From Haloprofundus salinisoli (GTDB lineage: Archaea; Halobacteriota; Halobacteria; Halobacteriales; Haloferacaceae): 64,000 nucleotides of DNA. The stretch lies in the NCBI RefSeq assembly GCF_020097815.1, contig NZ_CP083664.1, forward strand, positions 124,001 through 188,000. Reading direction: 5' to 3'. The translations under genes and the position numbers were made by a program. Of this stretch, positions 25,943-60,084 are shown piece by piece (position 1 is the stretch's first letter; every line of letters begins with the position of its first letter). Below the pieces are notes generated by a model. That model worked only from the letters and a program-made list of their open reading frames with translations, was not told the origin of the DNA and did no database searches.

Positions 25943-26008
25943 TGTCGTTTCTTAGAATTCTCAACTCAGAGACAGCACTAAGCTCCGAGAAGGTAACTCA
26001 GTAACAAC
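25943..26008 (+). repeat. Upstream region duplicated before both tandem lipoproteins
   Basis: The 66 bp before the first tandem lipoprotein match 26580-26647 before the second, including TCTCAACTCAGAGACAGCAC against TCTCAACGCAGAGACACCAC, CTAAGC, and CCGAGAAG. The duplication therefore included the promoter or leader, so both copies are probably expressed alike. Confidence 0.65.
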
Positions 26009-26536
26009 GTGCTCCGACGAACGCTTCTCTCTGTCGTACTCATCGTGGCCCTCGCAGGCTGTACTGGGTTGCCGATAGACCAACCGATTAAGCAAGAGCA
26101 ACTTGCAACAGTCGTGGTTACCAACTCTGTGAACTCGACAACGAGCTTCGAGATTTTCGTCGTTCAGCGCCCGGCAAACCTCACGTACAAGTTAAGCGAT
26201 GGACGGACAGAGACTCGCTCAATTGGTGAAGGAATTCGGAACTCACATCCTGGGGAGGGGCGGTCGTTCGTTTCCGTCGAGCCAGAGGAGTCGGCCCGCC
26301 TTCATGCACGATACACACTGGAACCTAACGAATCAAAACGGACCTCAGTTGATGATCTCCCTCGCAACTTTGCGATAATAGTTGTCGTTTACGATGATAA
26401 CGGCGATATCCCCTCTTTCGCTACGGTCAATTGTGATGACCTTGCGCTCGCTGGTCTTGGAGTCACCCGTACGTCTCATGGTATCAGTATCTCACACTCG
26501 TGTGTTGAACCGGAAGGTGGGTTGCTGAAAATCTAA
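26009..26536 (+). CDS. Lipoprotein, tandem copy 1
   Basis: 175 residues from a GTG start. Signal LRRTLLSVVLIVALAG with lipobox AGCTG. The mature part has VVVTNSVNSTTSFEIFVVQR, a variable middle, ESARLHARYTLEPNESKR, DDLPRNFAIIVVVYDD and a Cys pair (NCDDLALAGLG, SHSCVEPEGGLL) that may form a disulfide. About 60 percent of it is shared with copy 2. Function unknown; an adhesive or shielding surface role is possible. Confidence 0.8.
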   Translation: MLRRTLLSVVLIVALAGCTGLPIDQPIKQEQLATVVVTNSVNSTTSFEIFVVQRPANLTYKLSDGRTETRSIGEGIRNSHPGEGRSFVSVEPEESARLHARYTLEPNESKRTSVDDLPRNFAIIVVVYDDNGDIPSFATVNCDDLALAGLGVTRTSHGISISHSCVEPEGGLLKI

Positions 26537-26647
26537 TCCGATTGGCACCGGCTCTCGATACCCGTCAATACTGGAGTCCGTCGTCGTTTCTCAAAATTCT
26601 CAACGCAGAGACACCACTAAGCCCCGAGAAGATGACTCAGCAACACC

Positions 26648-27175
26648 GTGCTCAGACGAACGCTTCTCTCTGTCGTACTTATCGCTAGTCTCGCAGGTTG
26701 TGCTGGGTTGCCGATTGACCGACCGATTAAGCAAGAACAGCCTGCAACAGTCGTGGTTACCAACTCTGTGAACTCAAAGCAAACATTCGAGGTATTTGTG
26801 GTTCAAAAACCAGCCAAGTATACGATTCGAAGGAGTGATGGAATCAATGCTACCGGCGATATCGGTGAGGGAGTAAATGTCTACGAACCTGGTGACAACC
26901 GCACTTACACAGCGGTCGAATTGCCAGAATCTGCTCGACTACATGGTCGATATACGGTCAGACCAAACGAATCACAGAGAATATCTGTAGATAACCTTCC
27001 CCGTAACTTCGCTATCTTTGTCATCATCTTCCAAGATGAGAATAAAATCAGCTCTTACATAACCGCCAATTGTGATGACCTTGCTCTCGCTGATCTCGGA
27101 GTTGACCGGAAATCCCACGGTGCAAGTGCCTCATATAGGTGCGTTGAACCGCAAGGCGGGTTACTGAACTTCTAA
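26648..27175 (+). CDS. Lipoprotein, tandem copy 2
   Basis: 175 residues from GTG, same length as copy 1. Signal and first 40 residues are nearly identical, as is the end (NCDDLALADLGVDRKSHGAS and CVEPQGGLL). The centre (residues 55-95) differs most, which suggests diversifying selection or relaxed constraint on one face. The pair arose by tandem duplication of a unit of about 639 bp. Confidence 0.8.
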   Translation: MLRRTLLSVVLIASLAGCAGLPIDRPIKQEQPATVVVTNSVNSKQTFEVFVVQKPAKYTIRRSDGINATGDIGEGVNVYEPGDNRTYTAVELPESARLHGRYTVRPNESQRISVDNLPRNFAIFVIIFQDENKISSYITANCDDLALADLGVDRKSHGASASYRCVEPQGGLLNF

Positions 27176-27949: not shown

Positions 27950-28032
27950 TGGTGTGTCCACCACCGCGGCCATCCCATGGTACTTAACTGTACATGGCCC
28001 CCCGAGAAGTCGAGAGAGTGAAACCCAGTTCT

Positions 28033-28096
28033 GTTGAAACCCTCAATAAGTGAGAGTTCGCAGAGGTGCTGCTGAATACAGTGCGCGAGTCGGCCA
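28033..28096 (+). repeat. Short-type dispersed repeat R11
   Basis: GTTGAAACCCTC, AAGTGAGAGTTCGCAGAGG, TGCTGCTGAATACAGTGCGC and GAGTCGGCCAG. It lacks the TCTGACAG arm. R17 has the same short form, so this is a defined subtype rather than a random truncation. Confidence 0.75.
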
Positions 28097-28099
28097 GAT

Positions 28100-28441
28100 C
28101 TACGCAGACGGCTTCGCTGAAGAGTCGCAAAGTGCGATACGGACGCTACTCTTTTTGACACTGATTATTACGACTTCTAATTCATGCCTTTTTGCGATGT
28201 TGCTGATACTTTCAGGTGTAGCCTCTGGGTTAGTAGTGACGGCACCCCCGCTACCCGGAAGTGAATCCCAAATTTGTATCCAGAGGGATTGATTCTCACG
28301 ACGTAGTCCGCCTTCACGTATGATATCTCCAGCGACCCATTCTCCAGATAACCCCGGCACTGCTGTTTCACCACTCTCAAACTCAAACCCCGAATAACCC
28401 GCCTCCTGAAGTTCCTCAACAACCTGTTTCCAATCAGTCAT
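28100..28441 (-). CDS. Small cytosolic protein, unknown
   Basis: 113 residues: MTDWKQVVEELQEAGYSGFE, FESGETAVPGLSGEWVAGDI, a possible beta core (SLWIQIWDSLPG), and ATPESISNIAKRHELEVVII at the end. No signal or TM. It is the only gene between R11 and R12, and its stop lies 4 bp from R11. Family not recognised. Confidence 0.65.
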   Translation of the reverse strand: MTDWKQVVEELQEAGYSGFEFESGETAVPGLSGEWVAGDIIREGGLRRENQSLWIQIWDSLPGSGGAVTTNPEATPESISNIAKRHELEVVIISVKKSSVRIALCDSSAKPSA

Positions 28442-28463
28442 TGGTCATCTGGTTAACCTGTGC

Positions 28464-28559
28464 TGCTGATAAATTCACCCTCTCTATTCAGCACGTGATA
28501 TCTGACAGCGGGAAGAAAGGTTCCAGTGACTGTGCTGAATAGAGAGCGCGTATTGGTCA
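28464..28559 (+). repeat. Dispersed repeat copy R12
   Basis: CACCCTCTCTATTCAGCACG, TATCTGACAGC, hairpin GGAA-GAAAGG-TTCC, GTGCTGAATAGAGAGCGCG and TATTGGTCA. Same subfamily as R3. The final TCA, read on the minus strand, is the stop codon of the next gene. Confidence 0.9.
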
Positions 28560-28988
28560 GTCTCTGATTCGGAAAACCCACCACGACCGTATCCCTTCGG
28601 CGAACACTGTGAGTGGTGACAAAATTGGTGAGAACAGATACCAGTCGTAGTAGATTGAAGGATCGCTACCGATGTCTGGCCCTGTGAAGAAAAGCATGTA
28701 TGCGACAGGGAGTGAAACTGCAACGGTGGCTGATATCGAATAGAGGAATAGACGCACGAGCGCCCGAGTCTGTAACTGCTTGAGTGCCATGAGAGACTTT
28801 GCGACGAGTATCCCTCCAAGAGAGGCGAGTGGAACGATGATAAGTGGTGCAAACAGCCCTCGACCATCGATTGGTGTATGACCAGGCGGTAGGGGATGAT
28901 AGTTGGCCTGAGTGATGTATAGACTAAATCCGAGAAGGGCGATACCGAGGAGTAGTACCAAACCCGAGATTGTCCGACTCTTTAACAC
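28557..28988 (-). CDS. Four-TM membrane protein, unknown
   Basis: 143 residues with four TM segments (SGLVLLLGIALLGFSLYI, APLIIVPLASLGGILVA, LFLYSISATVAVSLPVAYML, LSPLTVFAEGIRSWWVF). Only gene between R12 and R13. Its TGA stop falls inside the last three bases of R12. Function unknown. Confidence 0.7.
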   Translation of the reverse strand: MLKSRTISGLVLLLGIALLGFSLYITQANYHPLPPGHTPIDGRGLFAPLIIVPLASLGGILVAKSLMALKQLQTRALVRLFLYSISATVAVSLPVAYMLFFTGPDIGSDPSIYYDWYLFSPILSPLTVFAEGIRSWWVFRIRD

Positions 28989-29075: not shown

Positions 29076-29168
29076 TGCTGGACGCGGCCTCTGTATATTG
29101 CATCCCTTGCTGACAGCTATTGAGGAGTTCGCTCATCGCCTGCTGAATACAGGGCGCGTATCGGTCAC
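29076..29168 (+). repeat. Dispersed repeat copy R13
   Basis: TGCTGGACGCGGCCTCTG, TATATTGCATCCC, TTGCTGACAGC, GAGTTCGCTCATCG, CTGCTGAATACAGGGCGCG and TATCGGTCAC. Full length. Confidence 0.9.
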
Positions 29169-30123: not shown

Positions 30124-30188
30124 ATACGTACTGATGTTGAAATAGAATTTTCACCCAAATCAACATGAACACATTGTGTCTTCCGTAA

Positions 30189-30279
30189 TGAATGAACGCT
30201 CTGTATCTTGCAATCCGTTACTGACAGCGGTTGAGGAATTCGCTCACCAACTGCTGAATAGAAGGCACGTATCTTGCAG
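30189..30279 (+). repeat. Dispersed repeat copy R14
   Basis: TGAATGAACGCTCTG, TATCTTGCAATCC, GTTACTGACAGC, GAATTCGCTCACC, AACTGCTGAATAGAAGGCAC. Full length; ends GTATCTTGCA like R8. Confidence 0.9.
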
Positions 30280-31056: not shown

Positions 31057-32706
31057 TTACTGAATACACCCTCTGTCGAATCGGTCTTGGCCCATGATGC
31101 CCTGCAGAATTTCGATGTAGTGGTCGACGATGTCTTCGACGGCCGTCGTGCGGTCGATGCCTGCGTTGAGTTGGTCGCGAATATCGAAAAACGAGAGCGC
31201 GGGGAGGACCTTCGCACAGTCGAAGTAGTAGACGTTCTCAAGTGAGCCATATTTGGCGTAGTGCGCTCGGAGGTACTCTTCGGGCATTCCGTCGCCTTTC
31301 GGGTCGATGAGGATGTCAGCACCGTCTGTGACGTTGTGGTTCGTGAGCATCGCGTTGATGAGCGAGGTCGATTTCCCGGAGCCAGTTTTCCCGAACCACG
31401 CAACGTGGAGCGGTTGGAGTGATGGTGGCAGGACAATTGGGTCGTCGTCGGGCGTACCGTCTTGGATAAGTGGCTGTCCGAGCGTGAGACCTGCCCCGCG
31501 GTAGTGTTTGAGTTCGGTTGTAGGTGGACGTGGTTGTGCGGTCCGTTCACCAAGTGTTGGATCGACAGCGCGTTTCCCAGCGGCGGTGAGTGCCGCTCCA
31601 TCGAGGACAGTGAAGTTACCGAGTTCCGCTGGGTCGGCGATGATGGCTTTCGAGCGCGTCGGTGTCCACGGCAGTCGCGTTCGGAGAGTGTCGTAATCGG
31701 GTCGGTGGAGTGATTGGGTTCGGACATCGTCGACAACATCTCGTGGGCTGCGTTTCGAGTCGGGTGTTCGGACTACGCCGGTGATCGCATAGCAGGTGCG
31801 GCCGACATCGCTCAGTGCTTTACTGAGTTCTTGGGCAACGGTTTCGGGGGCTGGTAAACTCGGTTTCGAGGGATTTTCATCCGCGACGGTGGCGGGGTCG
31901 ATTGCGACGGCACGAGCGTTGACGACGAACGTATGGCGAGCGTCTCGAGCGTCGATTTCTTCGAGGCGGGGTTTCGCGCTATCTGGTATTCGGGTGTTCT
32001 CTGGAGGAGTGTCCGTTGTCGTTGGCCCGAACAGGGTCGCGGCACCGCGCTGTGTGACGGTGTCCTCTCCATTCTTGAGTTGGTGTTTGCGATAGCTGGC
32101 ATCACCGCGCCAGTCCCGATACGGGTAGATGAGTGCTTGGTAGACGACCGGTAGCGGTTGGTTGGCCATCGTTTCGACGACTGCAGCGAGGGGGACGCGG
32201 GCGGTGTCGTCGTCGAAGAAGTCTGCGAGTGGCGTCAGTTGTGTCTGCCAGTCGTCGTAGCGGTCAACGTCGCCACAGAACTCGACTGTGGCGCAATCTT
32301 CTGGTTCGTTGGCTTTGTCAAGTGGATGTTCGGTGAACTGCGTGCGCTCGAACTCGTACGTTTCCGGGAATAGCCCACGGAGTATCCGTTCGAGTTACGT
32401 GAGAAGCGAGTCTGTGGTTTCGGTTGCTTGCGTTTCTGTGGTCAGGCCGACATAGTAGGTGACGCTTGGGTCTGTACCACCATCACTGACGAGCAACCAT
32501 TCGAGAGTGGGCTTCTGTGTGTCGTTGAACAGTGTGGTGAGCCAACTGCCGTCGACGCTGTATTCGAGATTGTGGAGTCGTTTCCAGTGTCTTGCGACGG
32601 TGTCTGGGTCGACCACGTCGGCGCTCGGTGTGATCTCGATGTATTCGGAAGATTGGTTATCAATCCCGGCGTCAGAATTTTTAGTAGAAATATCGTCGGT
32701 GGCCAT
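31057..32706 (-). pseudogene. TraD/VirB4-like conjugation ATPase, broken
   Basis: The frame opens at 32706 (MATDDISTKNSDAGIDNQSS) and is interrupted by a TAA at 32395 (SLLT, stop, LERILRGLFPETYEFE), then continues in the same phase. Walker A AWFGKTGSGKSTSLINAML is followed by ADILIDPKGDG, as in TraD/VirD4/HerA-like ATPases of haloarchaeal conjugative elements. It ends abruptly at QDRFD inside the ATPase domain, exactly where repeat stub R15 begins. So it has one nonsense codon and loss of the C-terminal half. A remnant of an integrated plasmid. Confidence 0.8.
31060..31076 (+). repeat. Repeat stub R15 at a gene break
   Basis: CTGAATACACCCTCTGT is the exact left end of the dispersed repeat; nothing of the rest follows. 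Read on the minus strand it supplies the last residues (RGCIQ) and is followed by the stop codon of the truncated ATPase gene. Confidence 0.75.
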
Positions 32707-35612: not shown

Positions 35613-35786
35613 ATGTGATGTAGGAGGGCGAGAAGCTTAGCGTTTCTACCGTGGGGAGAGACAGGCAACTCTACGTTTAAGGAGCTCAGCTGGATCGAAT
35701 GGCGTGTCCTCCGCCTGCTTTCTAGCCCCGATGGTGGCGACGTATCTCAGTCGTGGTGCTAACGTCGCAGGCACCACTTGCTACAA

Positions 35787-35810
35787 TCGCGTCTTGTATT
35801 CAGCAGTATC
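35787..35810 (-). repeat. Reversed repeat stub R16
   Basis: ATCGCGTCTTGTATTCAGCA is the reverse complement of the right end of the repeat. It is the only copy in this orientation, is incomplete, and lies about 40 bp before the break point of the SDR fragment. Confidence 0.5.
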
Positions 35811-35847
35811 TGAGTAACCTATCGAAATACAGTCAGGACCGGTATAG

Positions 35848-52062: not shown

Positions 52063-52243
52063 ACCTTACCTGAGCGTGGACGGCCCATAGAGCGGACAGC
52101 ATACTGCCGGGACAGCGTTTGTGCACAAGACGTTTATACGAGGTTCGATATTGCAACTCGTCGGACCGACCAAATCCGTGGGTCCCACCAAGCAACGCCT
52201 TTTCGACTGAAAGACGGTCCAGGCTCTTACCCTGCCGTGACTC

Positions 52244-52308
52244 CGTGAAACCCTCTGTCGGTGATAGTTTGGCGAGGCTGTGCTGAATAGAAAGCGCAAG
52301 TCGGTCGC
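52244..52308 (+). repeat. Short-type dispersed repeat R17
   Basis: CGTGAAACCCTCTG, GGTGATAGTTTGGCGAGG, CTGTGCTGAATAGAAAGCGC and AAGTCGGTCGC. Same short form as R11; a CCTC/GAGG stem is present in both. It opens the second dense array. The rest of 52063-52243 holds no gene. Confidence 0.75.
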
Positions 52309-52358
52309 GAGAGAATCTCATCAGAAAGCCTACAACCAGACAAGTTGTAGATCAAGTC

Positions 52359-52709
52359 ATGCATCCGTCGGTTCCCGGGATGGATGTACTCGTCCCTCTA
52401 ACTGCGCTTAGCGTAGGTGCTCTCGCAGGATTCCTCGTATATCGTAACGCGAAACATCAAAACATCCCATTACCCCATCTATGGGCCGGATTAGTTGGGA
52501 TAACATTCTTCCTTGCCCCGGTTATCCTCACTCCCGTTCTGCTTCCGGTCTATTCTTCTCTATTCATCCCATCTGGTCCGGGTCTTGTTGTTAAACCGTT
52601 ACACGCGTTCGCAACGATTCTCGGAGGGGGTTCGTTGGTCGGATTGGGAACTCTCCTCATCTTCTTTGGATATAAGAACCTCTACCACCGGCGAGAAGAC
52701 GTATCTTGA
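52359..52709 (+). CDS. Three-TM membrane protein, unknown
   Basis: 116 residues (ATG at 52380, MDVLVPLTALSVGALAGFLV, is an alternative start). TM segments: VLVPLTALSVGALAGFLVY, LVGITFFLAPVILTPVLLPV, TILGGGSLVGLGTLLIFFGY. The short C-terminus is basic then acidic. Only gene between R17 and R18. Confidence 0.7.
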   Translation: MHPSVPGMDVLVPLTALSVGALAGFLVYRNAKHQNIPLPHLWAGLVGITFFLAPVILTPVLLPVYSSLFIPSGPGLVVKPLHAFATILGGGSLVGLGTLLIFFGYKNLYHRREDVS

Positions 52710-52734
52710 AAATCGGACACACCCTTTCTGAAGT

Positions 52735-52827
52735 GACCGACACACCCTCTGTATCTTGCAATCCAGTACTGACAGCCGTTGAGGAGTTCGCTCACCGACT
52801 GCTGAATACAAGGCGCGAGTCGGTTAT
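52735..52827 (+). repeat. Dispersed repeat copy R18
   Basis: GACACACCCTCTGTATCTTG, CAATCCAGTACTGACAGCC, GTTGAGGAGTTCGCTCACCG, ACTGCTGAATACAAGGCGCG and AGTCGGTTAT. Full length. A near copy of its first bases, GGACACACCCTTTCTGAAGT, stands 19 bp upstream at about 52716. Confidence 0.9.
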
Positions 52828-52965
52828 CTCGGTTCGGTCCTTGAGGTGGGTGACTTGAATCGCTTAACACGAGTAATATACCTTGTAATGCCCTCTTACT
52901 GGGTCTGAATTAATAACGTTCTCTATTCTCAGAAGACACTTACACATCTACGTGTACGGGACAGT

Positions 52966-53391
52966 ATGAATCGTCGCCAATTCCTCTCAATCTCGGCGCT
53001 TTCCATATCTCTCTCCGGCTGTATTGAGGGTGATTTCGGTGGTACAACGAGAAATAACTCTACAACACCGAAAACCGAGACACTGTCTCCCGAAGGCGTG
53101 ACACCTGAGTGTTGGCCGTCGATGTGTAAAGGAACGAAACTCGTAGAGGTATTCGTAGCGCTGGGCGTTTCGGGCGACGTGGTACTACAAGCCGAATGTC
53201 GAGGCGAGGAGTTCCCAATTCGATCAGGAGAATCGGCTCAACTCGACCGCGAGGAGGACGCCGAGACCTGCGAAATCAGCGTATCTATCGACGGTGAACA
53301 AGTATATAGAGAAAACGTTGAGGATTACGAGAGCGTGACTCTGACTGTTAGTTCAAGCGGCGAGGTCGAGGAGGAAAGGGTCACTATTTAA
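52966..53391 (+). CDS. Small Tat lipoprotein, unknown
   Basis: 141 residues. MNRRQFLSISALSISLSG with lipobox SGCIE; a Thr/Asn spacer; then a beta domain beginning TKLVEVFVALGVSGDVVLQA and including a Cys pair (AECRGEEF, AETCEISV) and a final acidic strand. Similar in design to the other cassette lipoproteins but not alignable by eye. Only gene between R18 and R19. Confidence 0.75.
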   Translation: MNRRQFLSISALSISLSGCIEGDFGGTTRNNSTTPKTETLSPEGVTPECWPSMCKGTKLVEVFVALGVSGDVVLQAECRGEEFPIRSGESAQLDREEDAETCEISVSIDGEQVYRENVEDYESVTLTVSSSGEVEEERVTI

Positions 53392-53518
53392 GCGTAACTC
53401 AAAGGCTGATTAGGCCCCCTCCCGCGAGTTCAGAATCAGGAGTAACTACTGTTCACTGCCCGCGCGCTACCTCGCAGTTAATTTAGCTCCGATGAGATGG
53501 AAAAACCGAGGATTCAGT

Positions 53519-53610
53519 GAGAGATACATCCTCTGTATCTCGCATTCCGTTACTGACAGCAGTCGAGGGTTTCGCTTACCGACTGCTGAATAGAGAGCAC
53601 GAATGTGCCG
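53519..53610 (+). repeat. Dispersed repeat copy R19
   Basis: GATACATCCTCTGTATCTCG, CATTCCGTTACTGACAGC, GTTTCGCTTACCG, ACTGCTGAATAGAGAGCACG, AATGTGCCG. Full length. The next gene's stop codon begins at the following base (53611). Confidence 0.9.
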
Positions 53611-53862
53611 TTAGCGCATGGTCTGCATCGAGTCAGACAGCACTCGATGAACAACGCCAACAAAACCTCCGAAGAGGAGCGTAAGACCAAAAAGAGCCGC
53701 TATTAATGAGACAAGAGTTTCCAGTACTGGATTTGGAATGATAAAGAAGCCTCCCCGTGAGAACTCAATAATGAACCATCCCAGTACAGTCACCACGTAA
53801 AGCTTCACCAACTCGGGATTGAGAGCGTACCGAAACGAGTCTACAGCGGCGTCTTCAGGCAT
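53611..53862 (-). CDS. Small two-TM membrane protein
   Basis: 83 residues: LVKLYVVTVLGWFIIEFSRG and ETLVSLIAALFGLTLLFGGF are TM segments, with VVHRVLSDSMQTMR at the end. Its stop directly abuts R19. Only gene between R19 and R20. Confidence 0.65.
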   Translation of the reverse strand: MPEDAAVDSFRYALNPELVKLYVVTVLGWFIIEFSRGGFFIIPNPVLETLVSLIAALFGLTLLFGGFVGVVHRVLSDSMQTMR

Positions 53863-53975
53863 AAAATGTAGTTCAGTCTAATCTACAAATATCTTGTCGT
53901 GTTCAACAACAGATTCTTCGCTGCACCAATCGCCTATTTCACCGCTGGCCAAACAACAAACGAAGACCGTTTGCG

Positions 53976-54025
53976 GACTACACCCTCTGTATTCAGCAGA
54001 TGTCTACAGACAGTAATTGGGCAGA
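53976..54025 (+). repeat. Truncated dispersed repeat R20
   Basis: CTACACCCTCTGTATTCAGC, then CAGACAG and GGGCAGA. It stops at TTTCAGCG, where the 3' fragment of the lipoprotein gene of 8692-9060 begins. The bases TTTCAGCG are common to both parents, so joining at microhomology is likely. Confidence 0.7.
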
Positions 54026-54028
54026 TTT

Positions 54029-54103
54029 CAGCGAAGCGTTTGTCTCGACCCTGTATTAAAAGTCAATATCAGCGGAGGAATCGCCGGTGGGTGGTCTTAC
54101 TGA
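54029..54103 (+). pseudogene. 3' fragment of the lipoprotein gene of 8692-9060
   Basis: The codons read QRSVCLDPVLKVNISGGIAG, GWSY and TGA, identical to the last 25 codons of the gene at 8692-9060 except Glu to Lys and Cys to Tyr. The following bases GACCACTACA and the start of repeat R21 also match the region after that gene (R4). Confidence 0.85.
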
Positions 54104-54193
54104 CCACTACAACCTCTGTATTCACCACGTCGTTTGTGACAGCATTTGAATGGGTTTTAGCGACTGTGCTGAATAGAAGGCGCGTATCTTGTA
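54104..54193 (+). repeat. Dispersed repeat copy R21
   Basis: CTACAACCTCTGTATTCACC, ACGTCGTTTGTGACAGC, GGTTTTAGCGACTG, TGCTGAATAGAAGGCGCG, TATCTTGTA. Full length. Its left neighbour is the lipoprotein fragment, as at R4. Confidence 0.85.
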
Positions 54194-54325
54194 TCCGAAG
54201 CCATAACGAACCCACCGATATCTACGCCCGCCTAGTTATCGAGGCCGACCATCCCGCTTGAATCGTGCCTACGACTCCCACCCCTACCGCAACCGGGGCA
54301 AGCACTGCTGCTCGTACTTGGATGG

Positions 54326-54694
54326 CTAGAACGACAGCAGGTGGAATCTCGTCACGAGAAGTCCGGTGGTGAGATAGATCGCTGGCCCCACAAATCTCCA
54401 GAGCGGGTCGTCAACCCGGAAGAGATGTGTGAGGATGGCCCCGGCCATCGTGGCGACGATTAACAGTCCGCCGAGAACAGCGAGAATCGGCGTGAACACG
54501 AGACCGACGAGCAAGCCGAGACCCCCAAAAGCCTCGATGCCACCAGTAACGAACCGGAACCACTCTGGATAGCCGTACCGGTCGAAATCCTCTACCACCA
54601 GGTCAATGCCGATTAGCTTCGCAATGCCCGCAGCCAGCATGATGAGTCCGAGCAGCCCTTGCACGAGAGGGATGGCCGTTGCAATTGTGCTCAT
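54326..54694 (-). CDS. DoxX-family membrane protein
   Basis: 122 residues with four TM segments: PLVQGLLGLIMLAAGIAKLI, GGIEAFGGLGLLVGLVFTPI, AVLGGLLIVATMAGAILTHL and IYLTTGLLVTRFHLL. The AGIAKLIG... and G.IE..GG.GLL patterns are those of DoxX-like proteins. These are often linked to thiol or quinone metabolism, but the role here is unknown. It is divergent from the bat-type regulator. Confidence 0.85.
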   Translation of the reverse strand: MSTIATAIPLVQGLLGLIMLAAGIAKLIGIDLVVEDFDRYGYPEWFRFVTGGIEAFGGLGLLVGLVFTPILAVLGGLLIVATMAGAILTHLFRVDDPLWRFVGPAIYLTTGLLVTRFHLLSF

Positions 54695-54870
54695 AGTCTA
54701 CTACTCTTACGCGGTTCGGACAGGCGTTCATTCATCACGTTCCATCCTGTCTCCGACGAGAGCCATGGGTCTACTACGCTTGTTGAGACTACGGATTTCC
54801 CCGTGAATATATTCACCTTATTAAGCCACTAGGAAGTCTGTTAAGCCACTCGCCGGCCAACTCCGGTGGT

Positions 54871-55497
54871 ATGGTCCGTGCACACCTGAAGGTCGAGATC
54901 GGGGCAGACGACGACAACTGGCTGGCTGATGTCTCGACCGACTTCTCGGACGCCGAGTTCAAGATTCTGACGAGCCAGCCCGTAGACGATGGCGTGCTCG
55001 AACTGATCGAAGTAACGACATCGGATGGGGACGCCATCGTTCGCCGGTTCGACGACGCACCGGAGGTGCGCTCGTACGAAGTGCTCCATTCCGACGGCGG
55101 GATGGTACTGGTCCAGTTGGTGTTCCCGATGCCGTCAACGTATGAGGCAAGGCGTTCGATGGGGGTCCTTCCGAGATTTCCTATCACCATCCGAGACGGG
55201 TGGGCATCCGGTGAACAAACTACCTCACAGGAGCAGTTGTCGGAGTTGACTACCGAGTTAGCGGCGGCTCACATTCCGTACGAGATACTGTCGTTAACCC
55301 AATCATACGACCCGAACGGAGTTCTGACCGAGCGTCAACGGGAGGTCATCACTGAAGCTGTTGAACGGGGCTATTACGACAGTCCTCGCGGCTGTACCCT
55401 AGTTGAACTTGCAGAAACATTGGGGGTCAATCAATCAGCGGCTAGTGGTGTCCTCCATCGAGCTGAAGGGCGGATTATTAAGGAGTTCATCTCGTAG
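54871..55497 (+). CDS. Bat-type HTH transcriptional regulator
   Basis: 208 residues. The C-terminal bacterioopsin-activator HTH is plain: LTERQREVITEAVERGYYDS, PRGCTLVELAETLGVNQSAA, SGVLHRAEGRIIKEF. The N-terminal 140 residues form the sensor-like domain seen in many haloarchaeal HTH_10 proteins. It is divergent from the DoxX gene 176 bp away and likely regulates it. Between R21 and R22. Confidence 0.92.
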   Translation: MVRAHLKVEIGADDDNWLADVSTDFSDAEFKILTSQPVDDGVLELIEVTTSDGDAIVRRFDDAPEVRSYEVLHSDGGMVLVQLVFPMPSTYEARRSMGVLPRFPITIRDGWASGEQTTSQEQLSELTTELAAAHIPYEILSLTQSYDPNGVLTERQREVITEAVERGYYDSPRGCTLVELAETLGVNQSAASGVLHRAEGRIIKEFIS

Positions 55498-55597
55498 GCG
55501 GCGACAGAGGTAGACAAATCGCTCTCGTCTCATCCGATTGTCGCAGGATAATCGATGACGAATTCACCGAGAGCTACACCGCTTGTAGATACTACGT

Positions 55598-55690
55598 TGC
55601 TGAATGCATTCTCTGTACCTCGCATCCGTTACTGACAATAGGTGAGGAATTCGCTCACCGACTGCTGAATAGAAGGCGCATATGTCTCAC
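55598..55690 (+). repeat. Dispersed repeat copy R22
   Basis: TGCTGAATGCATTCTCTG, TACCTCGCATCC, GTTACTGACAAT, inner stem GGTGAG-GAATTCG-CTCACC, GACTGCTGAATAGAAGGCGC and ATATGTCTCAC. Full length. The inner hairpin is perfect here. The TCA at 55687-55689 is the stop codon of the next gene. Confidence 0.9.
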
Positions 55691-56109
55691 TGGGCTTCAT
55701 GTGTTACGACTCTTGACACAGTAACACCGACGCCGAGGAGGATGAGCACGCCACCGACCAGTACACTGTAGATAAAATCTGTAGCCACATGGTGTAGCTC
55801 AACGAGATTCGTTCGATAGTAGATGGGCAGACCGACATAAAAGAGACCACTGAGTAGCCCGGTTGCGTGTGCAACCCGTGATCTCGGATCTTGAGCAATC
55901 AACATGACCGTCAGTACTAGTGGAAGCAATGTGAGTACGTCTGCCTGAAAATAATCCAGGTCGAACGCCGTATTCTGACGCCAGAACATGATATCTGCGA
56001 CTGGGCCTTCGTGATCAGGGTCAACGACTGCCCACGGTGAAAGGTAGCCAATAACGACGAATACACCACCAGCGGCGACTATCGCTTGGCTGATTCTGGA
56101 GGATTTCAC
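55687..56109 (-). CDS. Four-TM membrane protein, unknown
   Basis: 140 residues from GTG 56109 (VKSSRISQAIVAAGGVFVVI); the open frame continues upstream into repeat R23, which is not coding. TM segments: AIVAAGGVFVVIGYLSPW, VLTLLPLVLTVMLIA, GLLSGLFYVGLPIYY, FIYSVLVGGVLILLGVGVTV. Its stop is inside the end of R22. Only gene between R22 and R23. Confidence 0.65.
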   Translation of the reverse strand: MKSSRISQAIVAAGGVFVVIGYLSPWAVVDPDHEGPVADIMFWRQNTAFDLDYFQADVLTLLPLVLTVMLIAQDPRSRVAHATGLLSGLFYVGLPIYYRTNLVELHHVATDFIYSVLVGGVLILLGVGVTVSRVVTHEAQ

Positions 56110-56191
56110 GAGTTGCACTGTTACTGGATGTAGTAAATGTCTTCTGTAGGACGTTAACAGGACCGAAACCGATGAGGGGGTATGAGATGAA

Positions 56192-56283
56192 ACCAATACA
56201 CCCTCTGTAGTCAGCACGTCGATTCTGACAGAGGATAGGTAGGTTTCTACGGGTATGCTGAATACAAGGCGCGTATCGGTCAC
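56192..56283 (+). repeat. Dispersed repeat copy R23
   Basis: CCAATACACCCTCTGTAGTC, AGCACGTCGATTCTGACAG, hairpin GTAG-GTTT-CTAC, TATGCTGAATACAAGGCGCG and TATCGGTCAC. Full length; same type as R1. Confidence 0.9.
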
Positions 56284-56393
56284 ACGCTAATCATCGTCTG
56301 GTGGTAGTTCGGAATGGTGTTTATTAATCTAAATAACGAAAGCTAACCCGCGTATATAACAAACCTTACATAGTCTAATTAGGTAGCATCGGC

Positions 56394-56858
56394 ATGGGGC
56401 GCTCAGGGTTGCCACCGGGTGAGGATATCATTATCCTGTTGGTTGAAGACAATCAGGGTGACGTTCGTCTCCTTGAAGAAGCATTCCACGACGCGTCGAT
56501 AGCCAATACGCTCTACATCGTTAACGACGGAGACGAAGCATTAGATTTCGTCAAGCAGCGCAACGAATATGCAGACGTTGCACGCCCGGACCTTATCCTC
56601 CTTGATTGGAAGCTCCCCACGCTTAGTGGGGAGGAGGTGCTGAAAGAGATAAAATCCAACTCATCGCTTGAGCAAATCCCCGTCATCGTATTGACCGGGT
56701 CTGAGGCACAGACGGACATCATCACTTCATACAACAACCAGGCAAATGCATACGTCCCCAAGCCGGTTGACCCAGACGAGTTCATCGATGTAATTCGGAC
56801 GTTAGAGAATTTCTGGCTCTCTGTAGTCCGCTTCCCGACTCACACTGACGAAGATTGA
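56394..56858 (+). CDS. Single-domain response regulator (Rcp1-like)
   Basis: 154 residues of receiver domain: ILLVEDNQGDVRLLEEAFHD with the acidic pair, PDLILLDWKLPTLSGEEVLK with the phosphoacceptor Asp71, VIVLTGSEAQTDI with the Thr, and AYVPKPVDPDEFIDVIRTLE with the Lys. There is no output domain, so it passes phosphate or binds partners. Only gene between R23 and R24. The large kinase at 57187 could be its donor. Confidence 0.9.
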   Translation: MGRSGLPPGEDIIILLVEDNQGDVRLLEEAFHDASIANTLYIVNDGDEALDFVKQRNEYADVARPDLILLDWKLPTLSGEEVLKEIKSNSSLEQIPVIVLTGSEAQTDIITSYNNQANAYVPKPVDPDEFIDVIRTLENFWLSVVRFPTHTDED

Positions 56859-56963
56859 GGCAGTTAGCGCCATCTCGATGCGACAGAGATGCCGAAAGAT
56901 ACGCAGTCTCGATTCATCTGTTAATTCGACTCTTCAAATATGACATAAAAGATGGCAGGATGA

Positions 56964-57053
56964 TGAATACCTCCTCTGTATTTCGCACAAGATTTTAACA
57001 ATTATTTGTCACTTCACCCATCGGCTGCTGAATACAAAGCGCTTCTCGGTCAT
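56964..57053 (+). repeat. Dispersed repeat copy R24
   Basis: TGAATACCTCCTCTGTATTT, CGCACAAGATTTTAACAATT, CACCCATCGG, CTGCTGAATACAAAGCGC and TTCTCGGTCAT. Full length; the TCTGACAG box is worn. Last copy in the window. The rest of 56859-57186 has no gene. Confidence 0.85.
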
Positions 57054-57186: not shown

Positions 57187-60084
57187 GTGGCAGTGAGTCA
57201 AAGGAACGAGCCGAGGGACCAAGGGAAAGTGAACATCGAGCGGGGACTCGAAGCACTGCGTCAGAGTTCGGAGTTTCGCGGCCCGGTCGAACCCCTCGAC
57301 GATCATACCCACGCGAACGACCATTTCGCACTCATCTACGAGACCCAAGAGGAGCAGTTTGCAGCCGCCGTCCCGTTCATGCGCCAGGGGCTCGAACGGG
57401 GCGAACGGTGCCTGTACATCACCTATGAGAACTCCAGAGAAGAGATCCTTGAGGCCATGCGGGCCGATGGCATTGACGTCGACGCCGCACTCGAATCGGG
57501 CGCATTCTCCATCCACACCGCCCAGGACAGCTACCTCCGGAACGGGACGTTCGACCCAGACGATACGATTGCGTTCCTCGACGAGGCCATCGAGGAGGCC
57601 ACCGAGGAGTACGAGGCGCTCCGGGTGACCGGCGAGATGAGTAGTGTCTTGGAGGAGGACCCCGACGGTGAGGATCTCATCAGGTGCGAGGCCAAGGCCA
57701 ACTACCTCTTCGATGACGTGGACGGCATCGCGCTCTGTCAGTACAACTGCGCGCGATTCTCGCCGGAGATCATCCACGACGTCATCAGCACCCATCCCCA
57801 CATCATCCACGGCAACAGGGTCAGTCACAACGTCTACTACACACCGCCCGAGGAATTCTTCGGTCCCGAGAAATCGGCCCGCGAAGTCGACCGGATGATG
57901 GGGACGCTGCGTAATCTGACTGAGGCGAAGACGGAACTCCAGAATCACAAGCAGGCTCAGCGAACGTTGTACGAGATTGTGGCCGGTTCCGACCGGACGT
58001 TCGAGGAGAAACTTCAGGCACTGTTCGACCTCGGGTGCGAACGGCTCGGCCTCGAACTGGGCGGGATGGCCTGCGTAGACCCGGCGACCGACCGCTTCGA
58101 GGTGGAAGTCATGAGCGGAGACCATGAACACCTCGTTCCGGGAGCCCAAGTCGAGCTTTCGGAGTCCTACTGTCGAGTAATTGCTGGCGGTGAGCGGACG
58201 GCTGGCGACTCAGACTCCGTAGACAGCGGGTTCGAAGACACGAATGCCTACGAGGAGTTCGGCAGGAGAGCCTACCTTAGGACCCACGTCGAAGTCGACG
58301 GCGATGTCGACCGGATACTCTTCTTCGTCTCGACTGAGCCACGGGACCGTGAGTTCTCGGACGAGGAACGCACGTTCCACCGCCTGATGGGCCAGTGGGT
58401 AGAGTACGAACTTGAACGCAGGCAGGCCGCGGAGGCACTGCGCGAACATACCCACACCCTCGAAACAATCAACGAGGTAGGCAACTCACTGGCCGCCGAA
58501 CTCGACCTCGAGAATCTGGTGCAGGAGGTTACAGACGCCGGTACGGAAATAACCGACGCGGAGTTTGGTGCCTTCTTCTATAACGTCATCGATGATCAGG
58601 GCGAATCCTACACGCTTTATACCATCTCAGGAGTTCCTGATGAGGCATTCGAGGACTTCCCGATGCCGCGCAATACGGAGGTCTTCGGTCCGACCTTTCA
58701 CGGCGAGGGGGTCGTCCGTTCGGACGACATCACCAAAGATCCGCGCTACGGTAATAACGCGCCCTACAAGGGGATGCCCGAAGGCCATCTGCCCGTATGC
58801 AGTTACCTGGCGGTTCCTGTAATTTCGAACTCCGGTGAAGTACACGGCGGCCTTTTCTTCGGCCATTCGGAGCCGGGTATATTCACCGAGAAGGATGAAA
58901 ACATCATCACCGGGATTGCTGCCCAAGCAGCCGTAGCCATTGATAACGCTCGTCTGTATGAAACGGTGCGCGAAAGCGAGGAGCGATTCCGTGCGTTGGT
59001 CTCCGCGAGTTCAGATGTCGTATATCGCATGAGCTCTGATTGGAGTGAAATGTACTATCTCGAAGGCAAGGAGTTCATCCCCGATACGCAGGAAGCGACC
59101 AACGATTGGCTTGATAAATACATTCATCCAGACGACCAGGAGCGAGTTATGGAGGCCATCAACGAAGCGATCCAGACCAAGAGCATCTTTGAGTTGGAAT
59201 CTCAGGTGGAGCAGGTCGATGGGAGCCTGGGTTGGACGTACTGGCGTGCGGTCCCGATGCTTGACGAGGACGGTATTATCGACGAATGGATCGGGATGGC
59301 GAGAGACATCACCGAGCGCAAAGAGTATGAGCAGGAACTCGAACAAACCAACGCCCAACTGGAACGCTCGAACGAACGATTGGAGCGGTCGAACACCGAA
59401 TTGAAGCGGTTTGCCTACGCCGCCTCCCACGATCTTCAGGAACCACTGCGGATGGTATCCAGCTATCTGCAACTCCTCGAACACCGCTATACGGACGATC
59501 TCGACGCCGACGCACAGGACTACATCGAGTTCGCCGTCGATGGTGCCGATCGGATGCGCGAGATGATCGACGCGCTCCTCAAATACTCGCGGCTCGACCG
59601 GGACGGCGACGAATTTGAACCAGTTGACTGTGCCGTTGTCCTCCGTGAGGCCATGGGCAATCTCCAGATCGCCATCGAGGAGAACGACGCCGAGATCACC
59701 TCGGACTCACTTCCGACGGTCATGGGTGACAAACAACAGCTGGTCCCACTGTTCCAGAACCTGCTCGATAACGCCATCACGTACGCCGGCGATGAACCAC
59801 CGCGTATTCACGTCACCGCCGAGAAGCCGAACGATGAGTGGGTGCTGTCCGTCCGTGATAACGGGATCGGGATTGATCCAGACAAGACCGACGGTATCTT
59901 CAGGGTGTTCAACCGCCTCCATACCACTGACGAGTTTGCGGGCACTGGCATCGGTCTCGCACTCTGCCAACGGATCGTCGATATTCACGACGGCCGCATT
60001 TGGGTCGATTCAAAACCCGGTGAGGGGTCGACCTTCTCCTTCACGGTTCCCGATGCAAAGGAGTACGTAGATGGTGATTCGTAG
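57187..60084 (+). CDS. MEDS-GAF-GAF-PAS sensor histidine kinase
   Basis: 965 residues from GTG 57187 (GTG 57193 also possible). Residues 40-240: MEDS domain (HFALIYETQEEQFAAAVPFM, RCLYITYENSREEILEAMRA). Residues 255-415: first GAF; 420-590: second GAF (GTEITDAEFGAFFYNVIDDQ, LAVPVISNSGEVHGGLFFGH). Residues 595-715: PAS. The HisKA box YAASHDLQEPLRMVSSYLQL has phospho-His748. HATPase: NLLDNAITYAG, DNGIGIDPDKTD, GTGIGLALCQRI. No TM segment, so it is cytosolic and senses a soluble or redox signal. The response regulator follows at once. Confidence 0.95.
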   Translation: MAVSQRNEPRDQGKVNIERGLEALRQSSEFRGPVEPLDDHTHANDHFALIYETQEEQFAAAVPFMRQGLERGERCLYITYENSREEILEAMRADGIDVDAALESGAFSIHTAQDSYLRNGTFDPDDTIAFLDEAIEEATEEYEALRVTGEMSSVLEEDPDGEDLIRCEAKANYLFDDVDGIALCQYNCARFSPEIIHDVISTHPHIIHGNRVSHNVYYTPPEEFFGPEKSAREVDRMMGTLRNLTEAKTELQNHKQAQRTLYEIVAGSDRTFEEKLQALFDLGCERLGLELGGMACVDPATDRFEVEVMSGDHEHLVPGAQVELSESYCRVIAGGERTAGDSDSVDSGFEDTNAYEEFGRRAYLRTHVEVDGDVDRILFFVSTEPRDREFSDEERTFHRLMGQWVEYELERRQAAEALREHTHTLETINEVGNSLAAELDLENLVQEVTDAGTEITDAEFGAFFYNVIDDQGESYTLYTISGVPDEAFEDFPMPRNTEVFGPTFHGEGVVRSDDITKDPRYGNNAPYKGMPEGHLPVCSYLAVPVISNSGEVHGGLFFGHSEPGIFTEKDENIITGIAAQAAVAIDNARLYETVRESEERFRALVSASSDVVYRMSSDWSEMYYLEGKEFIPDTQEATNDWLDKYIHPDDQERVMEAINEAIQTKSIFELESQVEQVDGSLGWTYWRAVPMLDEDGIIDEWIGMARDITERKEYEQELEQTNAQLERSNERLERSNTELKRFAYAASHDLQEPLRMVSSYLQLLEHRYTDDLDADAQDYIEFAVDGADRMREMIDALLKYSRLDRDGDEFEPVDCAVVLREAMGNLQIAIEENDAEITSDSLPTVMGDKQQLVPLFQNLLDNAITYAGDEPPRIHVTAEKPNDEWVLSVRDNGIGIDPDKTDGIFRVFNRLHTTDEFAGTGIGLALCQRIVDIHDGRIWVDSKPGEGSTFSFTVPDAKEYVDGDS

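Follow-up and report, generated by a model that had tools for sequence, protein, structure and literature searches.

This study revealed that a 64,000-nucleotide stretch of the genome of Haloprofundus salinisoli (the window) carries two arrays in which small genes alternate with sites of a single family. The arrays are probably (probability about 0.77) composed of mobile gene cassettes, which would be exchanged by a small tyrosine recombinase and to which a transposon layer of the IS5 type would be added. Our best reading of the sequences is an integron-like exchange of cassettes, at sites which would not themselves be of the integron type. The initial annotation had described the second array as cassette-like, carrying the same repeat in the same orientation as the first. 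This observation is confirmed and proves larger than first described: profile searches located eight sites at 52238-57053, all on the + strand, with small genes between them, and sites of this family occur on the same strand in the first array (3146-30279) as well (Table 1). The repeat is the same insofar as there is one site family; it is not uniform, as three related types with different halves were found, namely the full site F, LE (5' outermost) and RE (3' outermost). In addition, the RE at 53972 is the end of one element within the second array as reported.

The full site F is 94 nt long and consists of two 27-bp cores, facing outward, which flank a centre of about 40 nt. Each core comprises an 11 bp arm, a 5 bp spacer and another 11 bp arm, the consensus being TGCTGAATACA-nCCTC-TGTATtcaGCA for the L-core and TGCTGAATACA-gRGCG-CGTATcGGTCA for the R-core. 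As the reversed L-core (consensus TGCGAGATACAGAGGGTGTATTCAGCA) is near the R-core, F holds two outward-facing inverted cores. LE and RE contain a single core each, on the cassette side, and their termini are GGCTCTGTTGAAATCCTC or its reverse complement, the inverted repeat of haloarchaeal IS5-family elements. Within the own genome, this outer motif is mostly found at array ends. The arrays follow the grammar LE - (cassette - F)n - cassette - RE: over 74 loci, 163 transitions were allowed (LE-F 28, LE-RE 27, F-F 81, F-RE 27) versus 14 forbidden ones. Four kinds of connector are found between cassettes, namely F, LE, RE and a longer one that contains the recombinase gene.

In the own genome (3.42 Mb, three contigs), profile searches yielded 75 sites in about a dozen clusters on the chromosome and a plasmid. 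Neighbouring sites less than 3.5 kb apart formed 57 pairs, as opposed to 5.5 expected if sites were placed at random (at most 13 in 2000 trials), which rules out a uniform spread, and 56 of these 57 pairs share their orientation. Together with the occurrence of homologous cassettes in unrelated contexts, the clusters on both replicons bear out the earlier proposal of a dispersed site system rather than a single local duplication. The block between the arrays (40.7-52 kb) is GC-rich and repeat-free, as had been noted, with a GC content of 0.648 and zero sites versus a mean of 0.519 for the cassettes. Sites are present in at least 275 of 391 sampled Halobacteria genomes, and among 295 sampled genomes of the phylum all 29 matches fall in one and the same order; the class-wide counts are lower bounds, since scoring was restricted to the best candidates of each genome. 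The exact R-core pattern was absent from the viral contigs searched.

The borders of the cassettes were defined with 37 homologous cassette pairs, 29 of them at least 85% identical, from five genomes of Haloprofundus and a small number of others, so that these statistics are drawn mainly from one genus. At the 3' boundary, the identity of the 29 pairs drops from about 0.83-1.0 (site positions up to 11) to 0.38 at position 12; homologous pairs (0.96 and 0.38) resemble random pairs (0.96 and 0.32) at these two positions. At the 5' boundary, it drops from 0.81-0.88 (positions 80-81) to 0.44 at position 79, the values for random pairs being 0.73 at position 80 and 0.43 at position 79. The homology of cassettes ends inside both core spacers with a precision of one or two bases, positions within invariant bases not being resolvable. 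Because likeness beyond these boundaries equals that of random sites, no flanking centre moves with a cassette. Cassettes are mostly single-gene, occur in either orientation (26 and 22) and have a median length of 618 bp. They reassort: homologous cassettes shared neighbours in 1 of 21 comparable cases, and the same cassette can be an LE-RE unit in one genome and an array member in another (L131 and L039, 96% identical; L038 and L137, 87%). Such a pattern might also arise from homologous recombination between dispersed 94-bp repeats which serve another role, such as regulation, given that sites of one type are 80-90% alike and that haloarchaea recombine freely. This explanation is nevertheless quite unlikely, as the breakpoints lie at two fixed points and are not scattered along the repeat, exchange also occurs among LE, RE and F contexts that share only half a site, and the F centres are linked to neither adjoining cassette.

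With regard to the transposon layer, single LE-gene-RE units are common elsewhere in Halobacteria, LE being present in 88 of 145 genomes. Direct repeats of at least 7 bp flank 9 of 27 single units, versus 0.4 expected, and measure 8 bp once the element end is correctly set. Exact flanking repeats of 9-10 bp were found for 7 of 31 units, further units having one mismatch, and the unit at C1:2023100-2023490 of the own genome has AGTTGTT on either side. Elements encoding an IS5 transposase (NF033579) have the same 17-bp ends at six loci, with target duplications matching at 7-8 of 8 bp. None of the ten proteins of single units that were scanned is a transposase; an IS5 transposase may thus move LE-RE units in trans. 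A free palindromic attB deduced from the outer ends was not matched exactly in any of 145 haloarchaeal genomes or in a wider contig collection, and the outer ends are therefore transposon ends. An IS6-family origin of the ends was also rejected, since the own genome has no IS6 transposase and the ends are shared by IS5 elements. A 1.6-kb IS5-family element (L099 1395-2989) has an exact 8-bp duplication (AACTCACG) and carries a passenger gene for a small membrane protein of 141 aa, which resembles in its general type the cassette protein encoded at 52359-52709. Two miniature elements, L127 321-661 (341 bp) and L105 2596-2970 (375 bp), share the IS5-type ends and are flanked by 8-bp repeats, but contain no cores.

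These observations could suggest that the arrays consist of IS5-type miniature elements only, F being the decayed junction of adjoining elements and no site-specific recombination taking place. LE and RE are indeed inverted ends of nearly identical sequence, with termini of the IS5 type and 8-bp duplications, as in haloarchaeal IS5-family elements and their miniature derivatives, and IS5 elements with those same ends exist. We consider this unlikely, because the outer 18 bp are missing from both sides of F sites while their cores are conserved, the cassette boundaries fall within the core spacers, 40 bp inward of the transposon ends, and a recombinase gene bracketed by cores would be left unexplained. 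In terms of membership among non-autonomous IS5 elements, the terminal inverted repeats are shared and the LE-RE units show the 8-bp duplication, but F does not consist of transposon ends. Unlike IS5-family elements, the units studied here combine a passenger gene with inner 27-bp cores and cassette exchange.

The candidate enzyme for the exchange reading is a tyrosine recombinase of 234 aa, present as a single copy in the own genome (C1:1480861-1481574, - strand). Its gene is bracketed exactly by an L-core and an R-core, inside an array, and occupies the place of an F centre; in H. halobius, a 92% identical copy has an identical setting, and a recombinase remnant also adjoins an L-core. Cores were scored with the core matrix within 130 bp of the gene, above 99% of the background. 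Among 30 orthologues from many genera (69-100% identical), 29 have at least one core and 21 have both; these are outward-inverted in 21 of 21 cases and comprise one L and one R in 20 of 21. No core was found near any of 20 distant homologues (32-54% identity). The co-occurrence of recombinase and sites over genomes was not used, because the cores flanking the gene can match the site model. The protein belongs to the tyrosine recombinase superfamily by its Phage_integrase domain (PF00589, E=6e-15) and its R-K-H/x-R-H/W-Y residues, of which R65, K124, R184, W207 and Y216 are invariant and H181 nearly so, and it consists of the catalytic part only. The AlphaFold model was poor (mean pLDDT 44), and structure matches were not used.

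The closest profile and PDB-sequence matches of the recombinase are Xer proteins, far below the Xer cut-offs. As in the XerA/XerC/XerD and dif systems, 11-bp inverted arms surround a short spacer; unlike these, the sites have paired cores and delimit gene cassettes, instead of a single dif per replicon. Minimal tyrosine DNA invertases of the FimB/FimE type have about 200 aa, lack the usual N-terminal core-binding domain and act on inverted short sites. The recombinase matches their profile weakly (21 bits versus a cut-off of 221), whereas cassettes hold their orientation between genomes. Inversion of cassettes, which would be expected from inverted cores, was rejected as the main outcome because 37 homologous pairs lie on the same strand versus one weak reversed pair.

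In the proposed mechanism, a cassette would extend from the R-core spacer at its 5' end to the L-core spacer at its 3' end, and the 234-aa recombinase would most likely join R-core with R-core and L-core with L-core. Through such recombination of like cores, cassettes would be exchanged, gained and lost, while connectors would stay or be swapped separately. As the arrays of the window contain no recombinase gene, the enzyme would have to be supplied in trans by the single gene copy at C1:1480861. Since LE and RE carry IS5-family ends, a cassette or a whole array would be movable in trans by an IS5-type transposase, and such transposition would leave 8-bp target duplications at the new place. 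We infer the role of the recombinase as exchange enzyme, the reacting core pairs, array growth and mobilisation in trans from the features described above. More speculatively, F might have originated from two joined transposon ends with loss of the outer palindrome.

Several observations weigh against this mechanism. The recombinase gene is absent from the arrays of the window and has one copy only in the own genome, and of the five Haloprofundus genomes sampled, three (G019, G055, G081) have no recombinase at E<=1e-10, yet contain arrays. In nine of the 30 orthologues at most one core is recognisable, and several genes are broken. Array growth lacks a detailed account, with F centres tied to neither neighbouring cassette, and the sole IS5 transposase of the own genome is a distant relative, 41% identical. 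Finally, a second integrase of 374 aa with Phage_integrase and zinc ribbon domains (C1:548020-548562) is a possible participant; it is situated about 1 kb past the 3' end (549415) of the largest chromosomal array. A third integrase, of 436 aa (C1:377565-378011), lies beside an RE site and abuts an apparent tRNA gene, recognised from its sequence. It was rejected as a part of the system: given the adjoining tRNA gene and an 84% identical copy in L115 with no site nearby, it is probably a separate integrated island.

The arrays resemble integrons, or clusters of attC sites without integrase, in that each unit holds one or two small promiscuous genes, in their same-orientation sites built of two inverted simple sites, in the presumed involvement of a tyrosine recombinase and in the many arrays with no integrase nearby. 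A true bacterial-type integron, or such a cluster, with the site as an attC folding as single-stranded DNA, would account for this layout, and single-strand folding is indeed good for some copies (28465-28564, z -4.9). However, the RNAalifold consensus has no site-wide structure (4 pairs, none compensated, -2.5 kcal/mol), and the outer arms do not covary, either within a site (p=0.77) or within a cassette (p=0.57). The arms TGCTGAATACA/TGTATtcaGCA also differ from the attC R and L boxes (RYYYAAC...GTTRRRY). The recombinase belongs to another clade and scores 20.1 bits with the integron integrase profile TIGR02249, versus a cut-off of 265; IntI elsewhere in the genome was not searched for. Its gene lies within a connector, in the F-centre place between two cores, and not beside an attI, none of which was found. 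Cassettes end in both cores, carrying no whole site along, and array ends are IS5-type transposon ends. What is shared with integrons is thus the cassette array with same-orientation sites, and not IntI, a folded attC or attI. This explanation is very improbable and already largely refuted.

Archaeal integrons have been reported in other phyla, in work (PMC9668308) in which a word search found no mention of Halobacteria. The passages matched by word search in a survey of integrons in halophiles (PMC7923331) and in a review of archaeal tyrosine recombinases (PMC8371274) do not include this system. Word searches found no description of it in the open-access literature; closed journals or preprints may hold one. 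We lean slightly towards a second, independent gene-cassette system beside integrons, which would be Halobacteria-wide and would combine double-stranded paired cores, a connector-borne recombinase reduced to its catalytic part and IS5-type ends letting cassettes or arrays jump. Haloarchaea are known for heavy gene exchange, and the papers searched describe no cassette machinery dedicated to it. If the proposal is true, a defined vehicle with readable borders exists for the accessory genes of most haloarchaeal genomes, and gene-cassette arrays arose outside the integron lineage too. It would then be possible to catalogue cassettes automatically and to trace their flow between species, and the recombinase could serve as a high-salt tool.

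Table 1 Sites and cassettes of the two arrays (positions in the window)
Feature	Position	Strand	Details
F sites, first array	3146, 4521, 8539, 20175, 21922, 23043, 23862, 24471, 25062 (span 3146-25155)	+	20175 degenerate
LE, last element of first array	28027-28095	+	R-core 28070-28096
F site, first array	28467-28560	+	
F sites, first array	29076-29168, 30186-30279	+	
Isolated degenerate site	35779-35845	-	opposite strand
LE, 5' end of second array	52238-52306	+	degenerate IS5-type inverted repeat (GACTCCGTGAAACCCTC), R-core 52281-52307
Cassette 1	52308-52733	+	small membrane protein 52359-52709 (+), no Pfam family
F site	52734-52827	+	L-core 52734-52760, R-core 52800-52826
Cassette 2	52828-53517	+	lipoprotein-type protein 52966-53391 (+), no Pfam family
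F site	53518-53611	+	L-core 53518-53544, R-core 53584-53610
Cassette 3	53612-53971	-	83-aa membrane protein 53611-53862 (-)
RE, 3' end of first element	53972-54038	+	L-core 53972-53998, degenerate outer repeat
F site	54101-54194	+	L-core 54101-54127, R-core 54167-54193
Cassette 4	54195-55597	.	DoxX_2 54326-54694 (-), HTH_10 regulator 54871-55497 (+)
F site	55598-55690	+	L-core 55598-55624, R-core 55663-55689
Cassette 5	55691-56189	-	membrane protein 55687-56118 (-), no Pfam family
F site	56190-56283	+	L-core 56190-56216, R-core 56256-56282
Cassette 6	56284-56960	+	response regulator 56394-56858 (+)
F site, last of second array	56961-57053	+	

Seven genes lie between the sites of the second array. 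The DoxX_2, HTH_10 and response regulator families were assigned by Pfam; the three membrane proteins and the lipoprotein-type protein have no Pfam family and were named by eye. Cassette 3 (53518 unit) has a 94% identical counterpart in another Haloprofundus, L137, flanked by two F sites, and cassette 4 (54101 unit) has a 95% identical counterpart in L161 with different neighbours. Directly behind the last F site lies a histidine kinase with MEDS, GAF and PAS domains (57187-60084), which is 97% identical in another Haloprofundus and there too lies directly behind an F site; an RE behind this gene was not found. Rfam and tRNA scans of the window gave no matches. In the first array, the cassette at 28096-28466 (28027 unit) is 97% identical in L137, where it is flanked by two F sites. 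At the end of this array, a 370-aa ATPase-like open frame (31057-32169), possibly truncated, resembles by eye an ATPase of conjugation or DNA transfer. Inside the array, at 25944-26805, are two 223-bp copies, 84% alike and 639 bp apart.

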